NCBI RefSeq assembly: GCF_024298825.1
Contig: NZ_CP101153.1
Coordinates: forward strand, 62,001 to 126,000
Source: Haloglomus salinum
Lineage (GTDB): Archaea; Halobacteriota; Halobacteria; Halobacteriales; Haloarculaceae
DNA: 64,000 nucleotides
Direction: 5' to 3'
A program made the position numbers and the translations under genes. A model generated the notes under the pieces. The model was not told the DNA's origin and searched no databases. It saw only the letters and a list, made by a program, of their open reading frames with translations. This document shows positions 1,853-33,390 of the stretch, piece by piece. Each line of letters opens with the position of its first letter. Within the stretch, counting starts at the first letter, position 1.

Positions 1853-4384
1853 ATGAGTTCGGACGTCCCGGACGTCCCCGACGAGGTCGCGGAACGGGTC
1901 GAGAGCGTCCGCGTCGAGGACGAGATGGAGCAGTCGTACATCGACTACGCGATGAGCGTCATCGTCGGGCGTGCGCTGCCCGACGCGCGTGACGGCCTCA
2001 AACCCGTCCAGCGGCGCATCCTCTACGCGCTGCACGAGATGGGGGTCACGTCGAACTCGGGGCACCGCAAGTCCTCGAACGTGGTCGGGGAGACGATGGG
2101 TAACTACCACCCCCACGGCGACAGCGCCATCTACGACGCGCTGGCGCGGATGGCCCAGGACTTCTCCCTGCGCTACCCGCTCGTCGACGGACAGGGGAAC
2201 TTCGGGAGCATCGACGGTGACCCGCCCGCGGCGATGCGGTACACGGAGGCGCGGATGGCGCCGCTGGCCGAGGAGATGCTGGACGACATCGAGAAGGACA
2301 CCGTCGACTTCGAGGCCAACTACGACGACCGGCTCCAGGAGCCAGCGGTCCTGCCGGCTGCCCTCCCGAACCTGCTGCTGAACGGTGCCTCCGGTATCGC
2401 CGTCGGGATGAGTACGAACATCCCGCCGCACAACCTGGGCGAGGTCATCGACGCCTGCATCCACGTCATCGAGAACCCCGAGTGCCCCATCTCGGACCTC
2501 ATCGCGACGAAGGAGTCCGGCGGTCCCATCAAGGGCCCCGACTTCCCGACCGGCGCGCGTATCGTCGGCAAGGAGGGCGTCTACGACGCCTACACGACCG
2601 GCAAGGGCCGGGTCCGGGTCCGCGCGGAGTACGACGTCGAGCACAACGAGGGCGGGAAGGACCGCATCATCATCACCGCGTTCCCGTACCAGGAGAACAA
2701 GGCGCGCCGCATCGAGCGCATCGCGGACGACGTCAACGAGGGGAAGATAGAGGGCATCACGGACATCCGCGACGAGTCCGACCGGGACGGGGTCCGTGTC
2801 GTCATCGAGCTGAAGCGCGGCGCGAACACGGAGGTCGTCGAGAACCAGCTCGTCGAGCGCCACCTCGAGGGGACCTTCGGCGTCAACTGCGTCGCGCTCG
2901 TCGACGGCCAGCCCCAGCGGCTCGACCTCAAGCGGATGCTGGAGGTGTACGTCGACCACCGCCGCGAGGTGGTGCGCCGGCGCTCCGAGTTCGAACTCGC
3001 GGAGGCCGAGGACCGCGCGCACATCCTCGAGGGCCGGCTGCAGGCGTTGCAGAACGTCGACGAGGTCGTCGAACTCATCCGGAACAGTGAGGACCGGAAC
3101 GCAGCCATCGAAGCCCTCCAGACCGACGAGGACGCGCTCGGCTTCACGCTCAGCGAGGCGCAGGCCGAGCACATCGTCCGGATGCAGCTCGGGTCGCTGA
3201 CCTCGATGGAGGCCGCCGACGTCGAGACGGAGTACGAGGAGGTCACGGCCGAGATCGAGCGCCTCGAGACCATCCTCGGCTCGCAGGCGGAACTCGACCG
3301 CGTCGTCACGGAGGAGCTGGAGGAGATGAAGGAGAAGTACGACGACGAGCGCCGGACGAGCTTCATGGAGGACGTGGGCTCGGTCACGCGCGAGGACCTC
3401 ATCCCCGAGGAGGACGTGGTCGTCGTCGTCACGGAGGAGGACTACGTCAAGCGGATGCCCCTCGACGACTTCGACCCGCAGCACCGCGGCGGGAAGGGTA
3501 TCATCGGCGTCCGCCCGAAGGACGGGGACCGCGTCGCAACCGTCTTCGAGGCCAACACCCACGACTACCTGCTCTGCTTCACCAGCAAGGGGCAGGTCTA
3601 CCGGTTGAAGACCTACGAGATTCCCGAGATGGGCCGGACCGCACGCGGCACGTCGGCCCAGCAGGTGCTGGACCTCGACGGTGACGAGGAGATCAACGCC
3701 GTCGTCGACCTCGAGGACCTCGACGAGGAGGACTTCCTCGCGATGGTCACGCGGAACGGCTACGTCAAGCGGACGGAGGTCGGCGCCTTCGAGAACGTCC
3801 ACTCGGGCGGCATTCGCGCTATCAAGCTGGAGGACGGCGACAGCCTCGCCGACGTCGAGGTGACGGACGGCGAGATGGACCTCGTCATCGCCAGCCGGCA
3901 GGGGATGACCATCCGCTTCGACGAGGACGAAGCCCGCTCGATGGGTCGGACGGCCCGCGGCGTGAACGGCATCAAGCTCCAGGACGGTGACGAGGTGGCC
4001 GGGCTCGTCGCCACCCACGACGAGGACGAGCGCGCGCTGTTGACCGTCACCCGGCAGGGGTACGGCAAGCGCACGCGGCTCGCGGAGTACCGCCGGCAGT
4101 CCCGCTACGGGAAGGGACTCATCGACATCAAGACGACCGAGCGTAACGGCCAGGTCGTCTCCGTCAACGCCGTCACGGACGACGACGGGCTGGTCATCAT
4201 GAGCGAGAGCGGCCAGATAATGCGGACCCACGTCGACGAGGTGTCGATGCAGGGCCGCAACACGATGGGCGTCGTCGTGATGCGCCTCGACGATGACGAC
4301 TGGGTCGCGAGCGTCGACACCATCCCCGCGGCCGACAACGACCCCGACGCCGAGGACGACCCGACGGCCGACGCCGACGAGTAA
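1853..4384 (+). CDS. gyrA: DNA gyrase subunit A
   Basis: This is the DNA breakage-reunion subunit of gyrase, 843 aa. The catalytic tyrosine is Tyr130 in AAMRYTEAR. The quinolone-determining helix reads [11 protein letters not shown], with Ser91 and Asp95 at the positions that are Ser83 and Asp87 in E. coli, so the sensitive-type residues are retained. A GyrA box (QHRGGKG, about residue 542) opens the C-terminal beta-pinwheel, whose later blades carry GRTARG and related repeats. This argues for true gyrase rather than topoisomerase IV. The C-terminus is an acidic tail. The ATG at 1853 is preceded by a GGAGG Shine-Dalgarno sequence about 8 bases upstream. It is probably co-transcribed with gyrB. 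Confidence 0.97.
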
Positions 4385-4428
4385 CCCCGCCGTCCACGGG
4401 TTCCGGTCGTGGCAGCCGCCCCGACCGC

Positions 4429-4851
4429 CTACTCTTCGCCGTCGTTGTAGAACCGTTCGTCGAGCGCCCGCTGTGCCTCGTCGTCGTCCTCGTACCGCTC
4501 GTCGAGGGCCGCCTGGCTCGGGGCCGTCTCCGCCTCGCCAGCGACGCGGTCGACGCGCAGCTGGGTCCGTTCCTCGCTGAGGCCGAGGCTCTCGGCCATC
4601 CGGCGCTCGACCTCCTCGGGGTCGTCGGCCTGCGAGCCGACCTTCCGGGCGATGAGGAACAGCCCGAATCCGACCGCGGCGAACAGGACTGACAGGGCAC
4701 CGATAGCGACGAGCGCCCCGGTCTCGCCCCCGACCAGCAGTGCGCCGACCAGCGCCACGAGCACGACGACGAGCACCGCGCCGGCAGCGACGAGCGCCGC
4801 GCTCGCCCGGTCGGCGGCGGCCGCACCGTTCGTTCCTGCGTCTCCGGTCAC
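4429..4851 (-). CDS. Small two-helix membrane protein of unknown function
   Basis: This is a 140-aa protein that I do not recognise. Two long hydrophobic segments (roughly residues 17-42 and 46-74 from the chosen start) are followed by a charged, acidic cytoplasmic-type tail rich in Glu, Asp and Arg, with EEVERRMAESLGLSEE and ALDERYEDDDEAQ. I chose the GTG at 4851. The longer frame from 4959 would run over the start of the divergent methyltransferase, and its extra residues look unlike coding sequence. It converges on gyrA with 44 bp between stop codons. A structural or regulatory membrane role is possible, but nothing in the sequence decides it. Confidence 0.72.
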   Translation of the reverse strand: MTGDAGTNGAAAADRASAALVAAGAVLVVVLVALVGALLVGGETGALVAIGALSVLFAAVGFGLFLIARKVGSQADDPEEVERRMAESLGLSEERTQLRVDRVAGEAETAPSQAALDERYEDDDEAQRALDERFYNDGEE

Positions 4852-25688: not shown

Positions 25689-26492
25689 ATGACGACGACA
25701 GAGACCGTAGACGGGACAGAGATAGCGTACGAACGATACGGTGACGGCCAACCACTGATCCTTCTCCACGGGGGGATGGCCTCTCGACAGTACTGGAATC
25801 CGGTCTTGCCGCATTTCGAAGAGTATGCCGCTGTGGTTCCGCAGCGACCGGGCTTCGGAACGTGCCTCGACGATCAAGAGGAGACAAGCGCGGAAGAAGT
25901 ACTTCACCGCGAGACGCAGTACGTTCGCACACTCGTCAACGCGATCGACGGCGAGCCGATCCTCTCCGGCCACTCCTACGGTGCATTGACCGCAGTAGAG
26001 TCCGCGACAGATACAGTGGTCGATGCGGTCGTCGCATACGAACCGGCGGCACTCCCCGAGGAGTATCGCACGGAAGCCAATCTCGCCGAGCGGATGAGTG
26101 ACTTGCTTGAGGAAGGTGACCGCCGGGAAGCCGTGAAACGCTACATCGAGGATGTGCTCCACCCGGATGGAATCGACGATCTCGACGCGTGGTTGGCAGA
26201 ATGGCCCGTCTGGCCGGGATGCGTGGAACTCGCCGAAGAGGTCGTGAGGATGAACCGAGCCGTCGAGCGGTACGAGCTACCTGAAGCTCTCGACGTTAGA
26301 GTGCCCGTACTCGTGATGACCGGAACCGAAGGACCAGCATTCCTCCGAGAGAGTGCCCGTAGTTTTCATAACGCCCTCCCCCACAGTCGCCTCGTCGAGT
26401 TCGACGGCGTCAGTCACAGCGGTCCGAGTGAGGCGCCGAAACGAATTGCAGCTGAGATCGACTCGTTCCTTGTGAGCAGTCGTAATGAGTAG
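25689..26492 (+). CDS. Alpha/beta hydrolase
   Basis: This is a 267-aa alpha/beta-hydrolase. The oxyanion motif is LLHGGMAS. The nucleophile elbow is LSGHSYGAL with Ser96. The acid is probably the Asp/Glu in VMTGTEGP, and the base is His243 in GVSHSGPS. It could be an esterase, lactonase or C-C hydrolase. Its position after the CMD-family gene is suggestive of an aromatic or lactone substrate but not decisive. Its last eight bases overlap the next gene's start, pointing to translational coupling. Confidence 0.85.
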   Translation: MTTTETVDGTEIAYERYGDGQPLILLHGGMASRQYWNPVLPHFEEYAAVVPQRPGFGTCLDDQEETSAEEVLHRETQYVRTLVNAIDGEPILSGHSYGALTAVESATDTVVDAVVAYEPAALPEEYRTEANLAERMSDLLEEGDRREAVKRYIEDVLHPDGIDDLDAWLAEWPVWPGCVELAEEVVRMNRAVERYELPEALDVRVPVLVMTGTEGPAFLRESARSFHNALPHSRLVEFDGVSHSGPSEAPKRIAAEIDSFLVSSRNE

Positions 26493-27003
26493 AGATACAG
26501 CTCAACGGCCGACCGCCGATAGGGCCAGCAGCATAGTATCCAGACGCAAGGTCCTCACGGGTCTCGGAGCGACTGCTGCGGCTGGTCTTGCCGGCTGCAG
26601 CGGCACCGAATCGGGCGGAACGGAAACCGTGGACTGTCACAGCTCTGCACTCGAGCACGGCGAGGGGGATGTCCTCGACGGGGGGGTGATGGCGACTGTG
26701 GAGGACAGGGATGTCCGCCTGGTGGTTCCCCTATCCGTCGAAACGGTACGCAGCCAGAACGTCGATCGACTCGAACTGGTCGATGCCTCAGGGGTGGTAG
26801 CACACGTGATTCCTGTGTCCCCGGAGGACCAGAACGTGATGGCCAACAAGATGGGAGTCGGTGAGGGACAACTCCAGTACGAACAGTATCTCGCCCAGCG
26901 GCCCTTCCACGGTCAGTACAGAGTCATCGCCCTTGATCGAAGCGGGACCGAACTTGACTCGATTACCATCGAGTTCAACTGTTTCCCTGAACTCGAGGAC
27001 TGA
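26485..27003 (+). CDS. Exported Tat lipoprotein of unknown function
   Basis: This 172-aa protein has a twin-arginine signal after a short hydrophilic leader (VSRRKVLTGLGATAAAGL), then a lipobox LAGC at about residue 38. The mature part is beta-rich, with TVEDRDVRLVVPLSVETV and a final NCF. It holds a second and third Cys (DCHSS and FNCF) that could form a disulfide. I do not recognise the family. The start overlaps the hydrolase gene by eight bases, so the two are coupled. It may be a surface component that works with the hydrolase; this is inference. Confidence 0.75.
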   Translation: MSRDTAQRPTADRASSIVSRRKVLTGLGATAAAGLAGCSGTESGGTETVDCHSSALEHGEGDVLDGGVMATVEDRDVRLVVPLSVETVRSQNVDRLELVDASGVVAHVIPVSPEDQNVMANKMGVGEGQLQYEQYLAQRPFHGQYRVIALDRSGTELDSITIEFNCFPELED

Positions 27004-27054: not shown

Positions 27055-27735
27055 CTAATTTGTTGATGTCGAATTCTGTCGAATGCTGTCCCAATCTGTA
27101 ACATCTGTGACTGTTCCGTTCGTCAAGTCGATACTGACCGAATATTTCAGACTATCCCGTCCATCATCTCTAGGTTGTCTGATACGAACGACTGCTTGGT
27201 CCTCTACGTAACGCGGTTCTCGCTTGACCGTTACCGACCCATCCTCTCGATTGTCCGTGCCAGTGTCTGTAATCGTAAACTCACCGCTGGTCTGGTTGCT
27301 GTCAATCCTCACATCGTAAGACCGTTGACTGGAGGCGGACAGATTCAACCCCCTGACCGGCTCGACTGTGAGCTCGTACTCGCCCATCGAAGCCAGTGCT
27401 TGCTCCACGGTGTGATTGTTCATCGCAACCATCCGTGCCCGCTCGCGTTCAGCCTCCGTCAGCGGTCGGTTTGTACTCGTCTTCACAGTGAACTGGCCGG
27501 TACTCGTTTGTTCGACCGTTATCTCGCTCACGTTGGTGAGGTCGGTTACTACGGTTTCCGAACCCCCTGTTCCAACGAACGTGACGTTCTCGTTGGACAC
27601 GACGAACTCACCCGCTGTGCCGGAATTCGAGACCGGCGCGGTCACGCCGAAGGCAGTTCCCATGCCCGCTACCGCTACCCCGATCACGGTGAGCCCGGCG
27701 AGGACGAACAGCCGCGTACGAATGACCTCGGTCAT
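27055..27735 (-). CDS. Membrane-anchored exported protein of unknown function
   Basis: This 226-aa protein has one N-terminal hydrophobic helix (RLFVLAGLTVIGVAVAGMGTAFGV), acting as signal or anchor. The extracellular part is Thr/Ser/Asn-rich with many N-glycosylation sequons (NVT, NVS, NHT, NQT, NGT). No enzyme motif is seen. TATTAAT at 27762-27768 (minus strand) is placed for a leaderless transcript from the ATG at 27735. The gene diverges from the membrane-anchored winged-helix regulator, and a GTTTCA array lies between the two promoters, so it is a likely target of that regulator. Confidence 0.75.
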   Translation of the reverse strand: MTEVIRTRLFVLAGLTVIGVAVAGMGTAFGVTAPVSNSGTAGEFVVSNENVTFVGTGGSETVVTDLTNVSEITVEQTSTGQFTVKTSTNRPLTEAERERARMVAMNNHTVEQALASMGEYELTVEPVRGLNLSASSQRSYDVRIDSNQTSGEFTITDTGTDNREDGSVTVKREPRYVEDQAVVRIRQPRDDGRDSLKYSVSIDLTNGTVTDVTDWDSIRQNSTSTN

Positions 27736-27783
27736 ACTGTCATAATTCGGTGGAAAACCTGATTAATACTGGGATGAAACGAC

Positions 27784-27826
27784 TTTGAAACCAGTTTCAA
27801 ACGCGTTTCACGCGTGTTTCACGCAC
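27784..27826 (+). promoter_or_regulatory. GTTTCA array with 11-bp period (operator region)
   Basis: The palindrome TTTGAAACCAGTTTCAAA (27784-27801) runs into two further GTTTCA units. The three GTTTCA hexamers start at 27794, 27805 and 27816, exactly 11 bases apart, so they lie on one face of the DNA. The array sits between divergent TATA boxes (27762-27768 minus; 27852-27858 plus). It is a strong candidate binding array for a cooperatively bound regulator, most simply the product of the gene at 27882. Confidence 0.65.
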
Positions 27827-27851
27827 TCTGTAGCCGATATGAATCGATGGC

Positions 27852-27858
27852 TATATTT
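27852..27858 (+). promoter_or_regulatory. TATA box for the membrane-anchored regulator
   Basis: TATATTT is centred 27 bases before the ATG at 27882, predicting a leaderless mRNA and supporting that start. Confidence 0.65.
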
Positions 27859-27881
27859 TTCTGTAATATGATGGTTTCCAT

Positions 27882-28460
27882 ATGAGTTCGCGGGCCCTCC
27901 AACACACGCACCTGGTAGCGGCGGTTTTCTTTCTCGCTGCCGTTCTCGTTCTGGCTGTCCAGTTGATCACCCCGTCCCCGGTTGTGGTTTCGCTTGGGGA
28001 GAACGGGACACAGACATCAAGCATTGGCGAGTACTTCACGTACCGCGAGGTGGCTGTTGCTGTGATTGCGGCCGTCGTTTGTGGAGCCAGCGGAATGTAT
28101 CTCATTCTTCACGACCAGGCGTATGTGGCCGCCGAACAGAATCGTTCGAAGTCGCAGGGACAGCCACCTCTTGAGACAACCGGTGGTCGCGCCACGCAGC
28201 CGAAACGGTCTGACCCCTCGACAACAGGTTCACTTCCGGACGAAGAACAGTGGGAAGAGACACTCGAGACACTCGCGAGCCATCAAGAGACCATCTACGA
28301 ACTGCTGATCGAGGCCGATGGGGAGCTGCCACAGCAGCAACTCGTCGACGAGACCGATCTCTCGAAGGCGACCGTCAGTCGAACGCTTGACAAACTAGAA
28401 AACCGGGGACTCGTGGAGCGAAAGCGGAGTGGGATGGGCAATACCATACTCATCGAGTAA
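27882..28460 (+). CDS. Membrane-anchored winged-helix regulator
   Basis: This 192-aa protein has two N-terminal membrane helices (about residues 11-28 and 55-78) flanking an outside loop of about 25 residues. A polar linker follows, then a C-terminal MarR/IclR-like winged helix: LASHQETIYELLIEADGELPQQQLVDE with recognition helix LSKATVSRTLDKLENRGLVERKR. The topology suggests a one-component sensor that reads a signal at the membrane and binds DNA in the cytoplasm. The genes on both sides encode exported proteins, and GTTTCA-type arrays lie before and after it, so autoregulation plus control of both flanking genes is a reasonable inference. Confidence 0.82.
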   Translation: MSSRALQHTHLVAAVFFLAAVLVLAVQLITPSPVVVSLGENGTQTSSIGEYFTYREVAVAVIAAVVCGASGMYLILHDQAYVAAEQNRSKSQGQPPLETTGGRATQPKRSDPSTTGSLPDEEQWEETLETLASHQETIYELLIEADGELPQQQLVDETDLSKATVSRTLDKLENRGLVERKRSGMGNTILIE

Positions 28461-28483
28461 GTAGCCGACCCGAACCGAAACAG

Positions 28484-28522
28484 GTCTAAAACCGGTTTCA
28501 AACGCCTCTCGAACCGCTTTCG
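28484..28522 (+). promoter_or_regulatory. Degenerate copy of the GTTTCA array
   Basis: TCTAAAACCGGTTTCAAACGC repeats the palindrome-plus-GTTTCAAACGC start of the array at 27784. Hexamers GTTTCA, CTCTCG and CTTTCG begin at 28495, 28506 and 28517, again 11 bases apart. It lies about 140 bases upstream of the exported-protein gene at 28666. Confidence 0.5.
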
Positions 28523-28665
28523 CTCCCGTTGTCAATCAAAGGCTATGAGGTCTTTCAGACAACGTGAGACCGCGGCGAACCTGGGCGACGTGGCCCTGAT
28601 TCCCTGAGGTCCAGAACGCAGGTATCAGCCCTCCCGCTCCGGTTCGCCGACAACAAAGACTAGCT

Positions 28666-29331
28666 ATGCGATACAACGCACTCACGCTTGTGGTCGTGGC
28701 ACTGCTCGCCGTCGGGGCGAGCGGTGGCGTCGCCGCAAGTACGAATCCCTCCACAGCTGGCACCACGCCGGCTGATGTACCGGCAGCTAACCATACCGTC
28801 GATATCGTCAATCCCGATGAGATAAGTGACGAAGAGGTCGACCGGGCCATCGAGACAGCGTGGGCCAACGACGAAGTTCAGAGCTACTTCGATGACGATG
28901 CCGCGGTCCACTTCGATATCTGGGCATCAGAGTTAGACGAAAGAGTCGTCCACGTCAACATCGCCCCGGCCGATGCACCCGATTCGACACGGGTTATTGC
29001 CGATGTCGATATCGAACGGGGAACTGTCACGTCGATCGACGAGCCGGTGCGGCTCAACGCCTCGAACGCGATGACAATCAATACCAGCGGCGATACCTCC
29101 GTGTCGATCGACGGTGCGGAGTACGAACTACACGGAAACGACACGACTAGTGACGGAGACGCCACGCGATATCCTGCCCATCAAGCCACTCACTTCCAGC
29201 TCAACGAGAGTTCGATCGAGCGCGGTGGAGACGGAGCATTCACATTCGAGCTCGAGGATGACGATGGAACAGTCACCGATGTCTCCATCGGAGATATCTT
29301 CCGAATCGACTTCCCGTCGGCTGAGGAGTGA
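28666..29331 (+). CDS. Secreted acidic protein of unknown function
   Basis: This 221-aa protein has a Sec-type signal peptide (MRYNALTLVVVALLAVGASGGVAAS, cleavage probably after ASGGVAA). The mature protein is very acidic and carries several sequons (NHT, NAS, NTS, NDT, NES). A central part, DIVNPDEISDEEVDRAIETAW, is helical and the rest is beta-rich. No transmembrane anchor or catalytic motif is visible. It is downstream of the membrane-anchored regulator and its degenerate operator array, in a possible three-gene regulatory unit. Confidence 0.72.
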   Translation: MRYNALTLVVVALLAVGASGGVAASTNPSTAGTTPADVPAANHTVDIVNPDEISDEEVDRAIETAWANDEVQSYFDDDAAVHFDIWASELDERVVHVNIAPADAPDSTRVIADVDIERGTVTSIDEPVRLNASNAMTINTSGDTSVSIDGAEYELHGNDTTSDGDATRYPAHQATHFQLNESSIERGGDGAFTFELEDDDGTVTDVSIGDIFRIDFPSAEE

Positions 29332-29793: not shown

Positions 29794-32700
29794 TCAGTCC
29801 GAGCCGGGATATCCTCGTTCCATGATAACCTCGACGGCCGTTTGCTCGGCTAGCCGGACATGTTTGTTGAACGTCGGCTGAGTGACCCCCAGCATGTCGG
29901 CAACATCCTGGCCGCTTGATTCCCGGGGCCAGGCGAAGTATCCGGCCGAATAGGCCGTCTCGAAGGCCTCCCACTGCCGGTCGGTGAGTTCCTCTCGGAC
30001 GAGGTCCTGAAGTTCGAACAGTGATGGAATCGTTCGCTCGCGCTGTCGCTGGGCCACGAGTTCGGTATCGGGGTATCGGCTCTGGAACCCTTTTAGCAGC
30101 GACCTGACATCTGCCTCCCTGGGCGTCTCGACGACCAGTGTTCCCGTGCCGCCGTCGGCAGTTGCCTCCCGGACCACAGCACCGTAATCGGTGAACACTG
30201 AACCGAACCAATTCGATCTGCACACCTCAATCAGTCCGGTTTCATCGTCCTCGTCGACGCTGACGACTTGAGCGGTCTCGACGCTCTGCGCAGCCTCGGC
30301 TATATCGATCAACTCGCTCGGATCGGCTCTCTCGACAACGTAGAACGTCGAGAAGGAGCCGCCAGTCCGCCGGATGGTTCGCTCAAGTCTGACCTGGCAG
30401 TTCGTCTCGTCACTGGCCCGAATCATGAACAGGCCCTCGTCACGAGCCGCGAGTTCGAGTTCTGTCGTCCCCTCCGACTCCAGGGCGCGCTCCCTCTCGG
30501 CGACGGTGATGGCGTAGCCGATCGACCGGCCGAGTTCGGCGAGTACGTCCTGAGTCGAGTTATCAAATGCTCCCGGCTCTGTCGAAGCCACTGTGAGCAC
30601 GCCGTGATTCCGGTTCTCGTAGCTGACCGGGACGGCTACCACCGACTGGATGCCGTGTCGAAGAGCGGTTTTTCGCCAGTCGCCAGTCACGTCGGTGGCG
30701 ACGCTCCCGACGGCCTGGGTCTCGTCGTTCCGGAAGGCCCTGACCGAGGGGTGATTCCCCGCACCAGCGTCGAGAGTCATGCTCATGGCATCGAGATAGG
30801 TCTCTTTGCTCCCGGCACTGGTACCGACGACGAGCCCGTCCTCGTGAGCCGTCGGTTCGGCAACCCAAACTAGGTCGTGGAGGTCAACATCGATTAGGCG
30901 GTCGCAGACGGCTTTCTCGATACCGGCCCGGGAAGATTCTTCGACCGTGGCTCGTTCGATATCCCTGATGAAGGCGTTGAGCTGCTCTAGACGTTCGGCA
31001 CGTCGCTGGTGGTGACGGAGTTCTTGCTCGCGTTCCTCGAGTGCGCGCTCGCCAGCGACGTGGTTTAGCGCGGCTTCGAGCGTCGCAGCGAGCGCCTGCG
31101 CGAGGTCGACCTCCTCGGCGTCGAACGAACTGTCCGGTACCCTGACGAGCATCACGCCGTGGTTCCCGAGCGAAAGCACCAGATCAGGACTATGGTGTCC
31201 CATCTCGGATAGTTCTGTCACAGGATCGGTGCTAGTGGCCGACTCACCCTCGACGAACACCTGCCAGGGCAGGGAGTCACCGGGAGCAAACGAGGGCAGG
31301 TTCGCCGCCTCCGCCTGGGGACTCGACGCCGCCACCGGCACGAGTTCTCCTTGACCCTCGTCGTAGAGATGGGCCGAGACGACGGGAAATCCGAGTACGT
31401 TATCCGCCGCCTCGACGGCCAGTTGGCAGGCCACTTCCCGAGAATCCACTGCAGTGAGTTCGCGCGTCGCCTCGTGGAACGACGCAATCCGCTGTTCACG
31501 CTCCCTTCGCTCGGTCACGTCCCGACTGACAACGACCATCCGAGACGCTCCAGGCCCCCAGTCTGTCGGGTAGAAGTCCGATCTGACCCATCGTACTGAC
31601 CCAGCAGGTCGCTGGATACGGAATTCCTGAGAGTATCGGTCGTCTGCCGTCCCAGCCGCGACATCTGCCTCTATCCCCTCAACGAACGTAGCGAATCTAT
31701 CTCGGTCTTCAGGGTGAACGGTGGCAAGAATTCCTTCGTCGTTGTTCTCGAAGATGTCTTCGAGCGACTGTCCCCAGATCTCCTCGTAGCCCGCGCTCAG
31801 GTCGTCAGATTGGATGGACGGGTTCGTAATTTCGTCGGCCGGCCCAAGATAGATTGCTTCGTCGATTCGATCGACGACCGCGGAAAGGCGGCGCTCCGTC
31901 CGGCGTTTTTCGGTGACATCGCGCATAATCGCAAGGTAGCGTGGTTCGCCGTTGATTGTCGCGGGCGTGGCGTTGACCTCTACCAGAAGCCGGTCCCCCT
32001 GAGCGGTTTCGAACAACCAGTCGACCTCACGGGAATCTCCGGATTCAATGACATCGTCGACGACTTCCTTGAGATACTCCTTATCGTATCCCTCCTCGCC
32101 GACGCTGAGTACGAGGTCGTCACCCAGAATTGCTTCACGATCGTAGCCGGTGAGTTCCGGGAGGCGGTCGTTAACCCTGATAAGTTCGTAAGTCTCTGGA
32201 TCAAAGACTCCGATGGCGTCGGTGACGCTGTTGAACATCTGTTCGAACTCGCGGACCCGACGCTTCCGTTCGGTGACATCCCGATGACTTGCGATAGTCA
32301 CTTCCTCGCCCCCGATTACTGCCGGAGTGATTCGAACCTCCAACCACAGGTCTTCACCCTCTTTCGTTCGCCCCTTCCAGTCTACCGTCTCTGGCTCACC
32401 GGTCTCCGCGACGCGCTGGTGGATTTCGCGGGCACGTTCGACTGTGAACCCCTCCTCAGTCGCCATATACTCGGCCACCCCACGCTCACGAACGGCTCTG
32501 AGGTCGTCTTCGATGAGGTCGTCGAGAAACGCCTCGTTGGCGTCGAGAACATCCAACGTCTCGGGATCGTATACTGCGATCGGATCGATGACACCGTTGA
32601 ATATTTCTTCGAACTCCCGGGCACGCCGCTCACGCTCGGTGATATCTCGCGAGACGATCAGCGTTCGACGTTCCCCACCGATACGCGCTGGAGCGATGTT

Positions 32701-33390
32701 CGCCTCCACCCATCGGCGGTCGCCATCCGCGGTCTCCAGCAGCCACTTGTGGGTCTCTGCTTCGTCGTTCTCCAGAACTCGGCGCATAATCTGGTAGGCC
32801 CGGGCCGCCGTGTACCCTTCATCGGTGGCGCTGATGGCTGAAACTCCGCCGTCGAGTATCGAATCACGATCCGTCCCGATGAGGTCAACCATCGCCTCGT
32901 TGATTTCTTCAATCTCTTCGTCGTGGGGATCATGGACGGTAATAGCGTCGGTTACAGTATCGAATATCTCCCGCGACTCACCGCGGATTGGACTCCTGTG
33001 GTCCAGTTCCCCCGAGATTCGATCGAGAATGACATCGTACTGTGGGGCCGCCGTGATTCGGGAATAGTAATCGGAAGCGCCTGCCTCAAGAGCCGCTGCA
33101 ATCGTCGTACGGTCATCCTGAGCGTCGGTCAGGAGGAGAACGGGGACGGACGCGGTAGCCAGTGCTTCGACGGTGTCTAACAGGGAGTCCAGTTGATCAC
33201 CGACGAGAACGGCGTCTACGTCGGAGGAACCGCTGGCGACACTGCGTTTTACCGCAACCTTTCCCGACGTGACTGCGTCCGCCGACACCGATTCCCCGAC
33301 ATCAACGAGAGTGTCAACCACGTCTTGGGCAAATCCTTCGTCGCCATCGGCGACCAACAGCCGAAGTCCGTCGGAGCCCGGAGTTGCCAT
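29794..33390 (-). CDS. Multi-domain PAS/GAF sensor with Bat and HTH_10 output domains
   Basis: This is a 1198-aa one-polypeptide sensor-regulator. Order: receiver-like domain (about 8-125), four PAS domains (about 145-260, 265-385, 390-505 and 510-640, each ending in a DVTE(R/K) PAC motif), a GAF domain (about 650-790), a coiled linker (LEEREQELRHHQRRAERLEQL), a second GAF (about 815-960), the bacterio-opsin-activator domain (about 970-1125) and HTH_10 (LTDRQWEAFETAYSAGYFAWPRE, then VTQPTFNKHVRLAEQ). There is no histidine kinase or ATPase domain. The receiver lacks the usual conserved Lys (ASDYYSRI) and its phospho-Asp position is irregular (VLVGDQL), so phosphorylation is doubtful. It probably senses light, redox or small ligands and acts directly on DNA; targets are unknown. 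Confidence 0.9.
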   Translation of the reverse strand: MATPGSDGLRLLVADGDEGFAQDVVDTLVDVGESVSADAVTSGKVAVKRSVASGSSDVDAVLVGDQLDSLLDTVEALATASVPVLLLTDAQDDRTTIAAALEAGASDYYSRITAAPQYDVILDRISGELDHRSPIRGESREIFDTVTDAITVHDPHDEEIEEINEAMVDLIGTDRDSILDGGVSAISATDEGYTAARAYQIMRRVLENDEAETHKWLLETADGDRRWVEANIAPARIGGERRTLIVSRDITERERRAREFEEIFNGVIDPIAVYDPETLDVLDANEAFLDDLIEDDLRAVRERGVAEYMATEEGFTVERAREIHQRVAETGEPETVDWKGRTKEGEDLWLEVRITPAVIGGEEVTIASHRDVTERKRRVREFEQMFNSVTDAIGVFDPETYELIRVNDRLPELTGYDREAILGDDLVLSVGEEGYDKEYLKEVVDDVIESGDSREVDWLFETAQGDRLLVEVNATPATINGEPRYLAIMRDVTEKRRTERRLSAVVDRIDEAIYLGPADEITNPSIQSDDLSAGYEEIWGQSLEDIFENNDEGILATVHPEDRDRFATFVEGIEADVAAGTADDRYSQEFRIQRPAGSVRWVRSDFYPTDWGPGASRMVVVSRDVTERREREQRIASFHEATRELTAVDSREVACQLAVEAADNVLGFPVVSAHLYDEGQGELVPVAASSPQAEAANLPSFAPGDSLPWQVFVEGESATSTDPVTELSEMGHHSPDLVLSLGNHGVMLVRVPDSSFDAEEVDLAQALAATLEAALNHVAGERALEEREQELRHHQRRAERLEQLNAFIRDIERATVEESSRAGIEKAVCDRLIDVDLHDLVWVAEPTAHEDGLVVGTSAGSKETYLDAMSMTLDAGAGNHPSVRAFRNDETQAVGSVATDVTGDWRKTALRHGIQSVVAVPVSYENRNHGVLTVASTEPGAFDNSTQDVLAELGRSIGYAITVAERERALESEGTTELELAARDEGLFMIRASDETNCQVRLERTIRRTGGSFSTFYVVERADPSELIDIAEAAQSVETAQVVSVDEDDETGLIEVCRSNWFGSVFTDYGAVVREATADGGTGTLVVETPREADVRSLLKGFQSRYPDTELVAQRQRERTIPSLFELQDLVREELTDRQWEAFETAYSAGYFAWPRESSGQDVADMLGVTQPTFNKHVRLAEQTAVEVIMERGYPGSD

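Follow-up and report, generated by a model that had tools for sequence, protein, structure and literature searches.

Gene and array layout of the locus

The DNA analyzed here is a 64,000-nt stretch of Haloglomus salinum (GCF_024298825.1, NZ_CP101153.1, positions 62,001–126,000, forward strand), hereafter the window, in which we describe three genes termed A, R and C. Gene A (27055..27735, minus strand) encodes an exported or membrane-anchored protein of 226 aa with a signal- or anchor-like hydrophobic stretch at its N terminus, gene R (27882..28460, plus strand) a regulator of 192 aa, and gene C (28666..29331, plus strand) a protein of 221 aa with a signal-peptide-like N terminus and without evident sequence kinship to A. 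According to the open reading frames of the window, A and R are divergent and C lies downstream of R on the same strand. An earlier annotation made from the letters of the window (the sequence-only reading) had given this order correctly, with repeat arrays before and behind R and the exported-protein genes A and C adjoining. Pfam searches assigned no family to A or C and Foldseek returned no significant match for A; a PepSY-like fold, considered for both proteins from their helix–strand pattern by eye, was dropped on these grounds. Just past A lies a gene for a small TAT/lipoprotein-like secreted protein without Pfam family (26485–27003, plus strand), and the module is adjoined by a gene for a 1198-aa bacterio-opsin-activator-like regulator with several PAS and GAF domains and with BAT and HTH_10 domains (29794–33390, minus strand). 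The genome also holds a second, diverged copy of the module (L033, G000:C1:394000-401000), with its own array at 396990–397025 and a regulator at 397099–397719 that is 52% identical to R.

R matches the Pfam family DUF7343 (PF24034) with 56.4 bits against a cut-off of 27.6, and MarR (35.4 against 24.6) and MarR_2 (43 against 27) above their cut-offs with the winged helix only, these DUF7343/MarR-like matches spanning residues 131–190. An NCBIfam search with R gave only subthreshold winged-helix matches, and no paper on DUF7343 was among the literature searched. The predicted layout comprises membrane helices at about residues 4–29 and 54–80 with a short external loop, a linker (98–116), a helix (121–144) and the winged helix (131–190). 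In the AlphaFold model, helices at 4–29 and 54–91, a disordered linker at 98–116 and a helix at 121–144 accompany a confident winged helix, so that the two membrane helices and the winged helix attributed to R by the sequence-only reading are borne out in the predicted structure, with the winged helix at the C-terminal end. The best Foldseek matches of this model are ArsR/MarR winged helices, with AspA and TubR also listed, all with modest E-values, as the alignments cover nothing but the winged helix; the recognition helix is nearly invariant among relatives of R. Transmembrane transcription regulators (TTRs) are defined by a predicted DNA-binding domain plus a transmembrane region in a single protein that controls transcription from the membrane (PMC10269533), and R, with both regions predicted in one chain, is a predicted member of this class.

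The front array (27775..27821) lies in the upstream region common to the divergent genes A and R and reads TGAAAC-N5-TGAAAC-N2-GTTTCA-N5-GTTTCA-N5-GTTTCA, that is, five half-sites on one 11-bp lattice around a dyad, two inverted and three direct. Half-sites 1 (27775..27780) and 2 (27786..27791, left dyad arm) lie on the minus strand and appear as TGAAAC on the plus strand, and half-sites 3 (27794..27799, right dyad arm), 4 (27805..27810) and 5 (27816..27821) are GTTTCA on the plus strand. The three GTTTCA units at 27794, 27805 and 27816 had been read exactly; the inverted half-sites at 27775 and 27786 had been missed, and the palindrome TTTGAAACCAGTTTCAAA, exact at 27784–27801, overlaps the first GTTTCA rather than preceding the units as had been stated. 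The rear array (28476..28533), located before gene C, is degenerate with a geometry like that of the front array, reading CGAAAC-N5-TAAAAC-N2-GTTTCA-N5-CTCTCG-N5-CTTTCG-N5-GTTGTC. Its claimed 11-bp lattice is present, with further on-lattice units in CGAAAC (28476), TAAAAC (28487) and GTTGTC (28528), although the units at 28506 (CTCTCG) and 28517 (CTTTCG) that had been listed are weak taken singly. The 12-mer said to be common to both arrays agrees at 11 bases and is not identical (front AGTTTCAAACGC, rear GGTTTCAAACGC).

Promoter elements and the leader of gene C

Based on the sequence and on a consensus in related loci, a candidate core-promoter element of A was placed at 27751..27759 on the minus strand (GGTTTTCCA in the window, GGTCTTTCA as the consensus); its start is separated by 21 nt from the nearest half-site and lies 24 nt ahead of the start codon. 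A candidate element of C was placed at 28543..28557 on the plus strand (CTATGAGGTCTTTCA), the GG of which starts 21 nt from the nearest lattice position. The two genes have in common a TATGAGGTCTTTCA-like element at equal distance from the array. On both the A and the C side the GGTCTTTCA element begins 21 nt past the nearest lattice position and is in phase with the lattice. The sequence-only reading had recognized that the arrays adjoin the promoters of the exported-protein genes; it had overlooked this fixed phase, as well as the fact that the arrays belong to those promoters. When genes are rearranged among related loci, the array travels with the exported-protein promoters and not with the R gene. 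In most loci the element lies 32, 42–44 or 53–54 nt from the dyad half-site (in seven A cases the automatic element pick landed on a half-site and not on the promoter), and the start codon of A follows the element by 23–28 nt. This last spacing suggests that the A transcript is leaderless, start sites being placed here by their distance to start codons.

The leader of C is longer than that of A and contains an inverted repeat at 28573..28649 (plus strand) with arms at 28573–28587 and 28635–28649. Nearly all of the 29 C leaders checked, from divergent-type loci, hold such a long inverted repeat, with 27 different stem sequences; judged from these leaders, the stem is conserved as pairing and not as sequence. 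The repeat begins near the presumed transcript start and mostly ends 6–24 nt before the start codon, and in twelve loci no more than 1 in 100 mononucleotide shuffles of the same C leader attains its stem score. An Rfam search of the locus, C leader included, gave no match.

The position of the arrays bears on the sign of regulation. MarR/ArsR-like winged helices are most often repressors, and R might likewise bind the array to repress both its targets and its own gene until an external signal relieves the repression, a reading that we consider rather unlikely. The arrays lie upstream of the core promoters and end 21 nt before the common promoter element, which is the position of archaeal activator sites (PMC6396743, PMC4390858): the boxes of ArnR are found at −43 to −84 (PMC6396743) and the elements of GvpE directly next to the BRE (PMC4390858). 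In addition, the TATA-like stretches TTGATGA and CTATGAG look weak. Since the array directly precedes the weak core promoters, in the position of archaeal activator sites, activation is favored over repression, and by this analogy R is probably an activator.

Array geometry and distribution in haloarchaea

Scanning of GTDB genome contigs gave 43 loci with organism names, all from haloarchaea, to which more were added from whole-genome searches; the comparison set comprises 48 loci, in which L007 and L070 are an identical place counted twice. The R relatives in this set have 35–66% protein identity to R. The divergent layout of the window is found in 32 loci, and the front-array layout is conserved throughout these loci of identical gene order; the 16 others are arranged differently, mostly with an A-like gene upstream of R on R's strand, and in the tree this operon layout appears in up to three separate places. 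An array is present in all 48 loci (scores 7–16, against shuffled means of about 2–3 and maxima of 3–6). Our first impression that the operon-type relatives have no arrays proved wrong: the array there sits upstream of A and not of R, and thus at the site where the operon promoter must be. Rear arrays are low-scoring and degenerate in many loci and clearer in some relatives, for example in Halostella pelagica (L036), TGAAAC-N5-TAAAAC-N2-GTTTTC-N5-GTTTCA-N5-GTTTCC. In Natrinema versiforme (L035), where an insert parts R from C, the rear array is found beside C. The stretch of about 1.1 kb between R and C in that locus (3583–4730) holds a TAT-signal-like gene.

Exact GTTTC/GAAAC core pairs were counted over the 48 loci in place of scoring by the array template (which had served to locate the operon-type regions; gene starts defined the 32 divergent ones), giving 79 pairs at 11 bp, 29 at 22 bp, 3 at 10 bp and 4 at 12 bp. 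After shuffling, the 11-bp count falls to 0.03 and no distance exceeds 2. The 11-bp spacing, on whose persistence in orthologous loci the sequence-only reading had staked its proposal, is therefore conserved. Offsets from GAAAC to GTTTC peak at 7, 18, 29 and 40, and the distance from the dyad to the start of R clusters at 66–69, 75–82 and 86–89, about one turn apart; the lattice stays put and the turning point shifts along it between loci. As the offset peaks imply that overlapping dyads exist, each 11-bp unit could be a 12-bp dyad GAAAC-N2-GTTTC occupied by an independent R dimer, with neither a head-to-tail row nor cooperativity. We find this doubtful, since either side of the dyad has strong half-sites in one orientation and weak overlapping ones in the other, and the strict 11-bp step together with the whole-turn dyad shifts points to contacts between neighbors. 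The shortness of the motif and the degenerate rear copy might suggest chance, low sequence complexity or a mobile or CRISPR-like element as the source of the repeats; this is hardly credible given the shuffle tests, the conservation at the protein identities given above and the genome-wide exclusivity. Allowing up to 2 mismatches, GTTTCA-N5-GTTTCA has 12 matches in the window; 9 of these fall in the front and rear arrays, and shuffled sequences average 1.86 matches and reach at most 5. With the same tolerance, the 18-bp palindrome is confined within the 4.19-Mb genome to the places of the front and rear arrays, the latter being the second best place in the whole-genome pattern search.

We then surveyed 194 near-complete genomes of the class with a 36-bp array model built on sequence only. 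The model matches 46 of the 194 genomes and R matches 49, with both in 44, the array only in 2, R only in 5 and neither in 143 (Fisher 2e-35, for related genomes in which events are not independent). The pairing of array and R drawn in the sequence-only reading thus holds as co-occurrence across genomes. Altogether 48 of 51 array places are within 1.85 kb of an R gene, the other three, those of the array-only genomes and a single additional distant one, being weak matches within coding sequence. A regulon elsewhere was considered and rejected, the three distant array matches (G071, G115, G151) being weak, within coding sequence and of score 5. On inspection, four of the five R-only genomes (G205, G110, G062, G183) hold an array that the strict filter had missed, weak in G183 (score 6); in the fifth (G108), R is present only as a fragment and gene A is missing. 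Gene A was found in 48 genomes, always with R and in none alone (Fisher 5e-45 over the 194 related genomes), and R and A are an obligate pair. Profile matches of A cross one in-frame stop in G016, G056, G132, G187, G212 and G062, which may be broken genes or over-long alignments.

Because A and R are never apart, co-occurrence alone cannot tell which of them the array serves, and another widely conserved haloarchaeal factor could bind it to control A, with R merely a neighbor of A. The array precedes C too, which has no evident kinship to A. The only argument against a general factor is that there are no arrays elsewhere: such a factor should have further sites, whereas the array model finds nothing in the Haloglomus salinum genome outside this module and the second copy at 396–398 kb, and none of the 145 genomes without an R match has a convincing array. 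A general factor would have to lack further arrays in every genome, and we deem it improbable. A site that occurs only beside one regulator gene, nearly everywhere that gene occurs, and that stays at promoters when genes move is most simply explained as the operator of R.

Proposed mechanism and relation to known regulators

Taken together, we consider it likely that the locus is a self-contained regulatory module built from R and its exported partner A, in most cases joined by a second exported protein, C, and from operator arrays of its own that lie before A/R and before C. Judging from the conserved sequence features, R would in all likelihood be a one-component transmembrane regulator dedicated to this locus; its subunits would most likely bind the arrays in a row along one face of the DNA, and A, C and R itself would be under its control. 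R would be held in the membrane by its two N-terminal helices, with the MarR-like winged helix in the cytoplasm, and the winged helices of several R molecules would dock on the GTTTC-core half-sites every 11 bp, about one helical turn. Inversion of the half-sites about the dyad combined with the 11-bp step would arrange the R row along a single face. In line with the sequence-only reading, we infer that this binding is cooperative and would tether the DNA at the membrane, where R most likely brings the basal factors to the promoters of A and C and would also act on the R gene. Exported A and the external loop of R probably make up the input side, and sensing would run through A.

In ToxR and TcpP the N-terminal domain is an OmpR-type winged helix, and the protein crosses the membrane once. 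The ToxR/ToxS and TcpP/TcpH systems resemble the present module in their membrane-held winged helix and in their short direct repeats about one turn apart, and the partner is encoded next door, a role that A may have here by analogy. These repeats are TNAAA-N5-TNAAA for ToxR and, with an 11-bp step, TGTAA-N6-TGTAA for TcpP (PMC4829181); the direct repeats about one helical turn apart that mark operators of the ToxR/TcpP/CadC family are found in the array as well, with its conserved 11-bp step. Unlike ToxR and TcpP, R has a C-terminal MarR-like domain and two membrane passes, its array is longer and contains an inversion, and there is no sequence kinship. R has no OmpR-type (Trans_reg_C) match, and its winged helix follows the two membrane helices. 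ArnR and ArnR1 of Sulfolobus acidocaldarius are, like R, archaeal membrane-bound one-component regulators with two membrane helices, and their two boxes upstream of the BRE are both needed for binding (PMC6396743). In ArnR, however, an N-terminal HTH stands together with HAMP and sensor domains and C-terminal membrane helices, the inverted repeats read TCGAC-N5-GTCGA and there are several targets, whereas R has the reverse domain order, no HAMP, sensor or N-terminal HTH domain, a tiny external loop and dedicated sites only.

Pho boxes also have an 11-bp step. Winged helices of the PhoB/OmpR class bind in tandem to these direct repeats (PMC3348028), but belong to receiver-domain response regulators of another winged-helix family that have no membrane helices. 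The GvpE half-site TGAAACGG resembles TGAAAC. As in the array described here, the GvpE activator region is central and common to divergent promoters, its sites directly adjoining the BRE, where close distance is needed (PMC4390858). GvpE differs in being leucine-zipper-like, with an 8-4-8 element and no membrane anchor; R is a winged helix with membrane helices. The Foldseek matches of R also include AspA (pNOB8) and TubR, winged helices that bind centromeres and line up along DNA; both are soluble plasmid-partition proteins and do not regulate a local operon. R would work like ToxR/TcpP or ArnR, yet is a member of neither family. More speculatively, the module may be an independently evolved haloarchaeal counterpart of ToxRS/TcpPH, in which A gates R via the small external loop and the phased, inverted 11-bp lattice fastens the promoters at the membrane, each locus having a regulator of its own; we put this forward as possible rather than probable.

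Transmembrane regulators are predicted in many archaea, and the mapped sites that we found in the literature are those of the Sulfolobus ArnR pair only. The module described here offers a regulator whose operator is sharply defined, conserved and unique, in genera that include Haloferax, Haloarcula and Halorubrum, and predicts both a partner (A) and two target promoters of one common geometry. Such an operator lends itself to direct tests of binding, of phasing along the helix and of promoter contact made from the membrane.
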